The notes below the pieces were generated by a model. It saw only the letters and a program-made list of their open reading frames with translations. It ran no database searches and was not told the DNA's origin. This document shows positions 26,730 to 33,213 of a DNA stretch of 64,000 nucleotides, one piece after another. The stretch is from Chryseobacterium sediminis (lineage in GTDB: Bacteria; Bacteroidota; Bacteroidia; Flavobacteriales; Weeksellaceae): NCBI RefSeq assembly GCF_008386505.1, contig NZ_VUNZ01000001.1:806001-870000 (forward strand), given 5' to 3'. Position numbers and translations under genes: made by a program. The stretch's first letter is position 1; each line of letters starts with the position of its first letter.

Positions 26730-27014
26730 ATGAAAAACTTAAAAAAATTAGACAGAAACGAATTAAAAGCTATTTCAGGTAACGGATTACTAGATCCAAT
26801 CGGCGGACTTCTAGGTGGACTAGGAGGTGTTGTAGGTGGAGTAGTAGGCGGAGTAGGTACTATCGTTGGTGGCGTAGTTACTGGCGTAGGATCTACAGTA
26901 GGTGGTGTAGTTGGCGGTGTAAGCACTGTTGTAACTAACGCATTATGCCAGACACAATGTGTTGTAAATGGTGTAATCCACATCAAATTACTTGAGTGCG
27001 GATCAACTTGCTAG
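26730..27014 (+). CDS. Bacteriocin-like leader peptide with Gly/Val-rich core
   Basis: A 94-residue product. The leader MKNLKKLDRNELKAISGNG belongs to the Chryseobacterium bacteriocin-like family, ending in a possible S-G/G-N processing site. The core ~20-66 is almost all Gly, Val, Leu, Thr and Ser with GG and GxxxG steps (GGLLGGLGGVVGGVVGGVG), suited to helix packing in membranes as in class II two-peptide bacteriocins. The tail has four cysteines (CQTQCVVNGV...ECGSTC). No ABC exporter, protease or immunity gene is adjacent; a SHOCT-tailed exported protein follows. Function as an antibacterial peptide is inferred from the leader. Confidence 0.75.
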   Translation: MKNLKKLDRNELKAISGNGLLDPIGGLLGGLGGVVGGVVGGVGTIVGGVVTGVGSTVGGVVGGVSTVVTNALCQTQCVVNGVIHIKLLECGSTC

Positions 27015-31330: not shown

Positions 31331-32197
31331 ATGAAAAAATCATATTTATTATTGCATTTGGCCGTAGTACTGGCCGGATTTACAGGAGTATTCGGAAAAT
31401 TGATATCACTTAATGAAGGTCTTTTAACATGGTACAGAGTTATGTTTTCCTGCGTGATTCTGTTTTTTATCCTTAAAATATTTAAAATTCCCAATACCGC
31501 TTCAGGAAAAGAAAAACTGAAAATTGCTCAGGCAGGACTTCTTATTACCTTACATTGGGTTCTGTTCTATGCAAGCATCAAATATTCCAATATATCAATT
31601 GGAGTTGTGTGCTATTGTCTCACCAGCTTTTTTACAGCTTTACTGAAACCGATTATTGATAGACAGAAATTCAGGTTATCAGAACTGGGACTCAGTACTT
31701 TGACGCTTTTGGGAATCAGCCTCATCTTCCATTTTGATGCGTCTTACCAGCTGGGAATTATTTTAGGTGTATTTTCTTCTGCAGTTGCAGCGCTTTATAC
31801 CATTTATAATGAGCGCCTGGTTCAGCGTTTTGACAGCATTATTATCAACTATTATCAGATGCTTGCCGGCACTGTATGCCTTGGAGCAATTTTGCCCATA
31901 TATCTCCTCTATTTCAAAGCAGATAGCATAGTTCCTGGATTAAAAGACATGGCTTATTTAGGGCTTTTAGCGCTTTTTTGTACGGTAGGACTTTATGTGA
32001 TATTTGCAGAAGTTTTAAAGAAAATTCCGGCCTTTACAGTGAACTTAACTTTCAATCTGGAGCCGGTATATGCTATTATTATTGCCTTTTTATTTTTCGA
32101 TGAAAGTAAAGAAGTTAATCTTTCGTTTTATATAGGATTGGCATTTATTATTGCTTCCGTAGCTTTGCAGACATTGATTTCAATTAAGAAAAAATAA
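31331..32197 (+). CDS. EamA/DMT family transporter
   Basis: I use the ATG at 31331 (MKKSYLLLHLAVVLAGFTGV); the 20 residues upstream are not helix-forming. The 288-residue protein has ten predicted membrane helices in two EamA repeats, with conserved points such as WYRVMFSCVILF, LHWVLFYASIKYSNIS and FNLEPVYAIIIAFLFFDE. It exports or imports a metabolite in the inner membrane; substrates of this family range from amino acids to purines. No partner gene nearby. Confidence 0.9.
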   Translation: MKKSYLLLHLAVVLAGFTGVFGKLISLNEGLLTWYRVMFSCVILFFILKIFKIPNTASGKEKLKIAQAGLLITLHWVLFYASIKYSNISIGVVCYCLTSFFTALLKPIIDRQKFRLSELGLSTLTLLGISLIFHFDASYQLGIILGVFSSAVAALYTIYNERLVQRFDSIIINYYQMLAGTVCLGAILPIYLLYFKADSIVPGLKDMAYLGLLALFCTVGLYVIFAEVLKKIPAFTVNLTFNLEPVYAIIIAFLFFDESKEVNLSFYIGLAFIIASVALQTLISIKKK

Positions 32198-32241
32198 TAG
32201 AAATAGATATCTTATTTATTAAAATATTCTAAATTAAATTG

Positions 32242-32304
32242 CTCACAGTTATTTTTTTTCATCAAAATCATATATTTGCTACTAAACAAAAAAATAACTG
32301 TGAG
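32242..32304 (+). promoter_or_regulatory. Perfect 17-bp inverted repeat bracketing the SRA-HNH promoter
   Basis: The left arm at 32242-32258 (CTCACAGTTA plus seven Ts) is the exact reverse complement of the right arm at 32288-32304, separated by 29 nt. A TATATTTG -7 element (TAnnTTTG) lies at 32271-32278 between them, so transcription should start near 32285. The left arm would then sit near -43 to -27 and the right arm would cover the first bases of the message and the GTG start at 32300. It looks like a DNA-level operator. Confidence 0.75.
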
Positions 32305-33172
32305 TAAACCTATTATATTTGGTGAAATTGAAGGTATTGAAGAGGGATATCATTTTAATAATAGAAAAGAGATGATGCCAACAAGCTTTCATAGAAATTG
32401 GGGTGCAGGAATTGACGGAAATGCAAAAGAAGGTACTGCTGCAATTGTTCTTTCTGGAGGATATGAAGATGATTTAGATTTTGGAGAAGAAATTATTTAT
32501 ACGGGTGCTGGTGGTAACGATAGCAATACTGGAAAGCAAATAAGAGATCAGACATGGGAAAAAGGGAATGCTGGACTTATAATAAGTATGGACCAAGGAT
32601 TACCCGTAAGAGTTATACGGGGATCAACACATAGATCTGAATTTTCTCCTCAAAATGGTTATTCTTATGCTGGATTATATAGCGTTGTTGATGCTTGGGA
32701 AGAAACTGGTAAAAGTGGGTTCAAAATTTGTAGATTTCGTTTAGAATATTCTGGTAATAATCAGTCTAAAAAAACAGTGCAACAAATTGAATTAGACTAT
32801 TCTGAAAGGACAAAAAAAAGAATAGAAAGTACTATTTTAAGAATTGTACGAGATACTAAAGTTGCATTGCAGATAAAAAGATTATATAATTTTAAATGCC
32901 AAGTTTGTCAGATTTCTATTCCAACCAAATTAGGTCATTATGCAGAAGGAGCTCATATCAAACCGCTAGGTAAACCCCATAATGGAGATGATAATCCTAA
33001 TAATCTTATTTGTCTTTGCCCTAATCATCATATCATGTTTGATAAAGGTGTATTTTCAATTAAAGATGACTTACAATTAATTGGTTTATCAGGAGAACTT
33101 ACAATTAATGATAATCATACATTGAATCTTTCAAATCTACAATACCACCGTCAAACGCATGGTTTCGAATAA
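32300..33172 (+). CDS. SRA-HNH modification-dependent restriction endonuclease
   Basis: I choose the GTG at 32300 (protein 290 aa, starting M/VSKPIIFGEIEGIEEGYHF) because the -7 box at 32271 would place a TTG at 32276 before the transcript start. Residues ~10-150 are an SRA/YDG domain that reads modified cytosine: EGIEEGYHFNNRKEM, YTGAGGNDSNTGKQIRDQTW, RGSTHRSEFSPQNGYSYAGL. Residues ~185-265 are an HNH nuclease: C-x2-C (CQVCQ), GHYAEGAHIKPLGK with the catalytic His region and LCPNHHIMFDKG. SRA-HNH proteins cut 5mC/5hmC-containing DNA (type IV restriction). There is no methyltransferase beside it. Codons look more A/T-rich than flanking genes, suggesting transfer. Confidence 0.92.
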   Translation: MSKPIIFGEIEGIEEGYHFNNRKEMMPTSFHRNWGAGIDGNAKEGTAAIVLSGGYEDDLDFGEEIIYTGAGGNDSNTGKQIRDQTWEKGNAGLIISMDQGLPVRVIRGSTHRSEFSPQNGYSYAGLYSVVDAWEETGKSGFKICRFRLEYSGNNQSKKTVQQIELDYSERTKKRIESTILRIVRDTKVALQIKRLYNFKCQVCQISIPTKLGHYAEGAHIKPLGKPHNGDDNPNNLICLCPNHHIMFDKGVFSIKDDLQLIGLSGELTINDNHTLNLSNLQYHRQTHGFE

Positions 33173-33178
33173 AATATT

Positions 33179-33213
33179 AGCCTCTTAGAAATAATATTTT
33201 GAGAGGCTTTTTT
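33179..33213. terminator. Intrinsic terminator of the SRA-HNH gene
   Basis: AGCCTCT / AGAGGCT with a 16-nt loop and a T-run, between the nuclease and the convergent YdcF gene. Confidence 0.8.

Follow-up and report, generated by a model that had tools for sequence, protein, structure and literature searches.

In phage T4 the genes e (lysozyme), I-TevI and segB, and in Aeh1 the gene mobE, possess a promoter inside a hairpin that is formed by read-through RNA only (PMC2988022, PMC3014915). The products are nucleases or lytic enzymes, and for T4 gene e the hairpin gives a 100-fold reduction according to review (PMC2988022/PMC3014915). Hairpins at the start of C-controlled type II restriction genes, PvuII among them, have been predicted in 9 of 11 C-dependent systems (PMC2997769), where they would occlude the restriction-gene start on RNA arriving from upstream. 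This PvuII work is the nearest that we found in the open-licence literature, either to the locus described here or to such locks in restriction genes. The setting of the present locus differs from that of T4, since Bacteroidota lack Shine-Dalgarno sequences; in Flavobacterium johnsoniae, structure at the start tunes translation, and an upstream A favours it (PMC6847099).

The window (the whole stretch of Chryseobacterium sediminis DNA that was analysed, 64,000 nucleotides) encodes an SRA-HNH nuclease whose start lies in an inverted repeat. An earlier note on this DNA had reported perfect 17-bp arms, a -7 box between them, and a right arm that covers the GTG start of the nuclease gene, and each of these features is confirmed at the positions in Table 1. 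The spacer between the 17-bp arms is 29 nt, the GTG occupies 32300-32302 within the right arm, and both nuclease domains were found (SAD_SRA, E 2e-44; HNH_2, E 3e-14). The arms extend to 20 nt at 95% identity. The transcription start is predicted at about 32283 from the TAHHTTTG-to-start spacing (PMC6847099), which agrees with the note in placing the left arm upstream of it. In 1.264 Mb of the same genome there are three repeats with perfect 17-bp arms and a spacer of 20-80, the nuclease repeat included and none of them longer, against a chance expectation of 0.05 (mean of 20 local dinucleotide shuffles).

Table 1. Features of the nuclease locus; positions are counted from the first letter of the window.
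Feature	Coordinates	Strand	Remarks
EamA/DMT-type transporter gene	31331..32197	+	PF00892, E 8.5e-30; proposed source of read-through RNA
Left arm	32239..32258	+	Perfect 17 bp at 32242-32258, sequence CTCACAGTTATTTTTTT; 20 RNA pairs including one G-U
-7 promoter element TATATTTG	32271..32278	+	In the loop; matches TAHHTTTG (PMC6847099)
Predicted leader of the nuclease gene's own transcript	32283..32299	+	About 17 nt, A-rich, A at -3; from TAHHTTTG spacing
Right arm	32288..32307	+	Translation initiation region including the start codon; exact complement of the left arm at 32288-32304
SRA-HNH modification-dependent nuclease gene	32300..33172	+	GTG start, 290 aa; PF02182, PF13391; TagI 6GHS
Terminator-like hairpin 3' of the nuclease gene	33179..33208	+	Consensus scan

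Two further sequence features were seen in passing. The motif ATTCTAAA at 32226-32233, just 5' of the left arm, is conserved across 5/5 aligned sequences while the flanking intergenic sequence varies. Another of the three 17-bp repeats has arms containing the self-palindrome TATGCATGCATA, like a classical operator; at G000:C1:525462-525556 two self-palindromic TATGCATGCATA sites lie in inverted arms directly upstream of one ORF, and by appearance these sites look like a true repressor operator.

The encoded protein is of the TagI type (family TagI, ScoA3IV, TbiR51I) and resembles TagI over nearly its full length. The best match among solved relatives is TagI itself (6GHS; E 1.4e-68, residues 6-285), the SRA and HNH domains stand in the TagI order, and the Zn ligands and HNH residues are present, with TagI Cys210, Cys213, His229, Asn245, Cys250, His254 and Asp258 matched in the alignment. 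The exception is Asp253, replaced by His (CxxH for CxxD), a variant named as equivalent in PMC6212794. The nuclease here differs in coming from Chryseobacterium and in having a predicted activity; the description of TagI in PMC6212794 mentions no start hairpin. PADLOC returned weak HNH matches only, and the viral contigs contain one weak relative of the protein, confined to the HNH part. The dN/dS of the nuclease gene is 0.08-0.11 against the four syntenic orthologues described below, which indicates that the protein is maintained. Its synonymous divergence to the genome G095 is 0.16, versus 0.38 and 0.52 for the neighbouring genes, and it is also below the neighbours for the other three orthologues, owing either to recent exchange or to constraint on synonymous sites. 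An in-frame upstream TTG (32276) was considered as the true start and rejected: it is out of frame in the four orthologues, and the GTG is kept in 5/5 syntenic sequences.

The C5-cytosine methyltransferase family (PF00145) has no match in this genome, as has been reported for T. agreste (PMC6212794). Among the 173 genus genomes (G000-G172) the family occurs in 80, in 0/9 carriers of the nuclease and 80/164 of the others (Fisher one-sided p 0.003, uncorrected for shared descent). A carrier is a genome whose SRA-HNH gene is matched over its length, and the nine carriers are the ten genus matches minus G117, which has the HNH part only. The pattern, which bears indirectly on a putative cleavage of 5mC or 5hmC DNA, fits a modification-dependent nuclease that would be incompatible with resident 5mC.

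A search of the 173 genus genomes and named contigs gave four syntenic orthologues, in G095 (97% identity), C. panacisoli (93%), C. ureilyticum (88-89%) and C. indologenes (87%). The order glyoxalase, transporter, SRA-HNH, DUF218 is shared by the window, G095 and C. indologenes. Only fragments of the transporter gene remain in C. panacisoli, and C. ureilyticum has no more than a trace of it (47 bp matched, E 0.006). In the genome G081 a 28-codon SRA-HNH remnant (L022:1501-1584) stands beside the same DUF218 gene, and this genome has a C5-cytosine methyltransferase. Elsewhere in the window, a small ORF at 26730-27014 has a MKNLKKLDRNELKAISGNG-like leader and after it a glycine-rich stretch, and we take it to resemble the bacteriocin-like leader peptides.

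We propose that the repeat is an RNA read-through lock on the nuclease start, such that only transcripts started at the gene's own promoter would be translated; we give this reading a probability of about 0.47, slightly under even. Transcripts entering from the transporter gene would carry both arms, and in them a predicted hairpin of about 20 pairs would cover the leader and the GTG start and block ribosomes. RNA from the promoter in the loop would instead start after the left arm, expose an open A-rich leader and be translated, so that the dose of nuclease would be set by this promoter alone. Because the predicted start lies 3' of the left arm, the gene's own RNA should be unable to form the hairpin, while transporter-derived RNA can. 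The transporter gene is co-directional with the nuclease gene, and a simple consensus scan of the + strand found no terminator between 32197 and 32242. Its stop lies 44 nt 5' of the 17-bp left arm, and terminating ribosomes should therefore not hold the hairpin open. The U-rich left arm would oppose the favouring of translation by upstream A. What was observed are the layout of the locus, the predicted folds, the synteny and the differences between the sequences; read-through, the block by the hairpin in the cell, use of the promoter and maintenance by selection are the steps that we infer. The perfect match between the arms may have arisen by template switching.

The predicted folds are consistent with such a lock. 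RNA was folded from -100 to +40, with -13..+6 taken as the initiation region. In the read-through RNA the initiation region is unpaired at 0.07 in the window, 0.11 in G095 and 0.19 in C. indologenes, and at 0.41 and 0.64 in C. panacisoli and C. ureilyticum. In RNA from the predicted own start, where the left arm is absent, the value is 0.66 in the window and 0.56-0.86 across the five sequences. The locus resembles the T4-type hairpins in that its initiation region is predicted to be hidden when transcription starts at upstream promoters, in that its own promoter is so placed that the RNA would lack the 5' arm, and in encoding a nuclease. It differs in lying on a bacterial chromosome, in belonging to a restriction gene and in having an ordinary Bacteroidota promoter rather than a late-phage one, and it is known from sequence and predicted folds. 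The PvuII-type systems share the occlusion of a restriction-gene start by a predicted hairpin on RNA from upstream, but their hairpins are weak (cut-off -4.0 kcal/mol; PvuII -4.6) and lie within the co-transcribed regulator gene, and the account in PMC2997769 describes no restriction-gene promoter inside the hairpin.

Occlusion of this degree is rare in the genome. Among 928 ORFs of the same genome, a mechanical set (first ATG) rather than annotated genes and one from which the GTG-started nuclease gene is absent, none reaches 0.07 or below, one is at or below 0.11 and eight are at or below 0.19. No ORF with a TANNTTTG box is as occluded as the nuclease gene when all pass through a uniform pipeline (0/349). 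When only the upstream sequence was shuffled, the observed value was reached in 0/400 shuffles for the window and for G095, 12/400 for C. indologenes, 18/400 for C. panacisoli and 322/400 for C. ureilyticum. The hairpin is absent from more distant relatives at other sites: the two nearest of these, in C. paridis and G163, have no such structure (unpaired 0.78 and 0.77), and the start of the Elizabethkingia SRA-HNH genes folds differently (0.22 and 0.31). Of the ten rows in the fold set of relatives, two (L044, L047) take the match start in place of a start codon as their reference point, and L046 is the same record as L038. In Elizabethkingia L035 and L038 a small hairpin, CTTAGTA/TACTAAG, occurs just upstream of the SRA-HNH start.

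We also compared tandem with divergent genes carrying a TANNTTTG box for start occlusion in read-through RNA, expressed as the mean shuffle quantile; these ORFs too were called mechanically from the first ATG. The first 1.26 Mb gave 0.459 for tandem genes (n=88) vs 0.571 for divergent genes (n=95; p 0.011), a fresh 1.2 Mb gave 0.517 (n=85) vs 0.538 (n=81; p 0.36), and both samples together gave 0.488 (n=173) vs 0.556 (n=176; p 0.023). We dropped a general lock of tandem genes, since the difference between the two classes did not replicate on the fresh sample.

The earlier note had named a lack of conservation in orthologues as refuting its reading, and this applies in part: the exact repeat is not conserved, and pairing is kept in 2/4 syntenic orthologues. 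The full 17 bp exist in this genome only. G095, the nearest relative, has 15 bp perfect, with a right arm shorter by two A; C. panacisoli has three mismatches within the 15-bp core; and in C. ureilyticum the left arm differs and the right arm is two bases shorter. In C. indologenes the perfect core is 11 bp long and has G-C in place of the A-U of the others; beyond one mismatch more pairs follow, and the outer part contains two U-G pairs where the window has C-G. Since U-G pairs count in RNA but not as DNA symmetry, C. indologenes keeps the RNA pairing and loses the outer DNA symmetry, and G095 alone among the four orthologues keeps the DNA symmetry of the arms. The TAHHTTTG box is at the same position in 5/5 aligned sequences.

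In a grid of 18 pairs by 5 rows, pairing holds in 86.4% of cells, vs 41-52% with partners slid by 1-3, a count that excludes two pairs created by an AA insertion seen in the window only, and three outer positions that do not pair. The test that shuffles the letters of the 3' side gave 103/500, which is not significant; it has almost no power, as expected with the only double change in a single row. The covariation score is 0.106 vs 0.094 for the +1 slide, and the double changes are equal in number. The nuclease gene's own tree gives no resolution among the five. The order of events in the arms comes from hand parsimony on the tree of the neighbouring DUF218 gene, by which the core CRGTTATTTTT was present in the ancestor shared with C. 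indologenes.

Intact pairing coincides with an intact transporter gene in 5/5 sequences, and two species have lost both. With five species and two losses, this association is a lead only. In C. panacisoli and C. ureilyticum the nearest gene upstream is now the co-directional glyoxalase gene (at 315 and 225 nt), on whose strand no terminator was detected, so these two loci are not clearly free of read-through. In C. indologenes no terminator was found between the transporter gene and the left arm, and a terminator-like site lies 5' of the transporter gene. More tentatively than the lock itself, we suggest that a chromosomal restriction gene may be licensed by the origin of its transcript, the promoter lying within the start-codon hairpin so that no other transcripts than its own are translated, with the lock being kept as long as a co-transcribed neighbour feeds RNA into the gene and decaying after deletion of that neighbour.

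The serious and main rival is that the hairpin is a by-product, which we regard as possible and as the less probable account. The T-rich region upstream of the promoter and the A-rich leader are half-complementary by nature, and template switching in the ancestor of the window and G095 would have perfected the left arm, with no regulatory role. Such T-rich upstream and A-rich leader sequences are found at other ORFs of the genome, one of them with an unpaired value of 0.08, an ORF that we take for pyrH. Three core positions that are mispaired in C. panacisoli match the complement of the right arm in the window and G095. Template switching can create and mend hairpins (PMC8794818), and it may equally be the origin of a functional one. 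The loss of the exact repeat in C. panacisoli and C. ureilyticum and the failure of the genome-wide comparison to replicate point the same way, and further weight against a lock comes from the small sample of five sequences and the non-significant covariation. Disruption of the start hairpins of pvuIIR had no significant effect (PMC2997769); the occluding hairpin there is far weaker, but the result means that a predicted hairpin is no proof. Against a by-product stand the ancestral core shared with C. indologenes, where pairing is achieved via a two-sided difference and U-G, the loss of hairpin and transporter gene in the same two species, and the stronger occlusion of the nuclease gene than of any of the 928 ORFs.

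The earlier note had argued from the position of the left arm upstream of the start that the repeat is more likely an operator than an RNA hairpin; on an operator a dimeric or looping repressor would bind both arms and cover the promoter. That argument is not supported: a promoter inside a hairpin of read-through RNA also has its left arm 5' of the start, a geometry shared by T4 gene e, I-TevI, segB and Aeh1 mobE. An operator is improbable on other grounds as well. Its only positive evidence is the perfect symmetry around the -7 box, and the arms themselves have no internal symmetry, are not self-palindromic and lie 46 bp apart from centre to centre. Non-palindromic arms at such a spacing that do not recur are unusual for a dimeric repressor site. 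The arm, whose genome-wide search the note had suggested, matches 8 places in 4.9 Mb with up to two mismatches, two of them the arms, against 9 for the reversed control; by arm and core searches the arms are single-site in their own genome. The core pair occurs at scattered sites in 29/173 genus genomes; judged by eye and without summing, the reversed control has more matches. No recurring set was seen upstream of this gene's neighbours or of other genes, in the own genome or the 173 genus genomes, a one-mismatch copy of the arm (L003) shows no second arm by eye within 321 bases, and an exact search of the viral contigs for the 13-bp arm pair gave nothing. Left-arm DNA is not conserved in C. 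panacisoli, in C. ureilyticum or in the outer part of C. indologenes. AraC- and ArsR-type regulators do lie 2-5 kb from the repeat, together with a weak DnaA-C-like HTH (below the Pfam cut-off) within 5 kb, and the note's statement that no obvious repressor is nearby holds only in the sense that none of them is tied to the site. As a separate observation, G096 and G142 (L170, L171) have a GTTATTTTT/AAAAATAAC pair between two divergent ORFs; a TAHHTTTG box faces each way, and each right arm ends up 5-7 nt ahead of a start codon. A recombinase that flips the 29-nt loop and so turns the gene on or off is a far more remote prospect. Phase-variable promoters of Bacteroidota are bracketed by inverted repeats, as this promoter is, but the loop has one orientation in 5/5 sequences, is very short, and is followed by a right arm that overlies the leader, and no recombinase is among ten scanned neighbours.

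If the read-through lock is real, the mechanism described in phage T4 also controls a defence nuclease of a cell, and does so in a phylum that lacks Shine-Dalgarno sequences and in which structure at the start tunes translation. The contrast would then be with PvuII, whose weaker start hairpins had no effect when tested. The lock would account for the position of a lone nuclease gene after an unrelated gene with no evident terminator, and further cases could be sought cheaply by looking for start-codon hairpins that hold a promoter in the loop.
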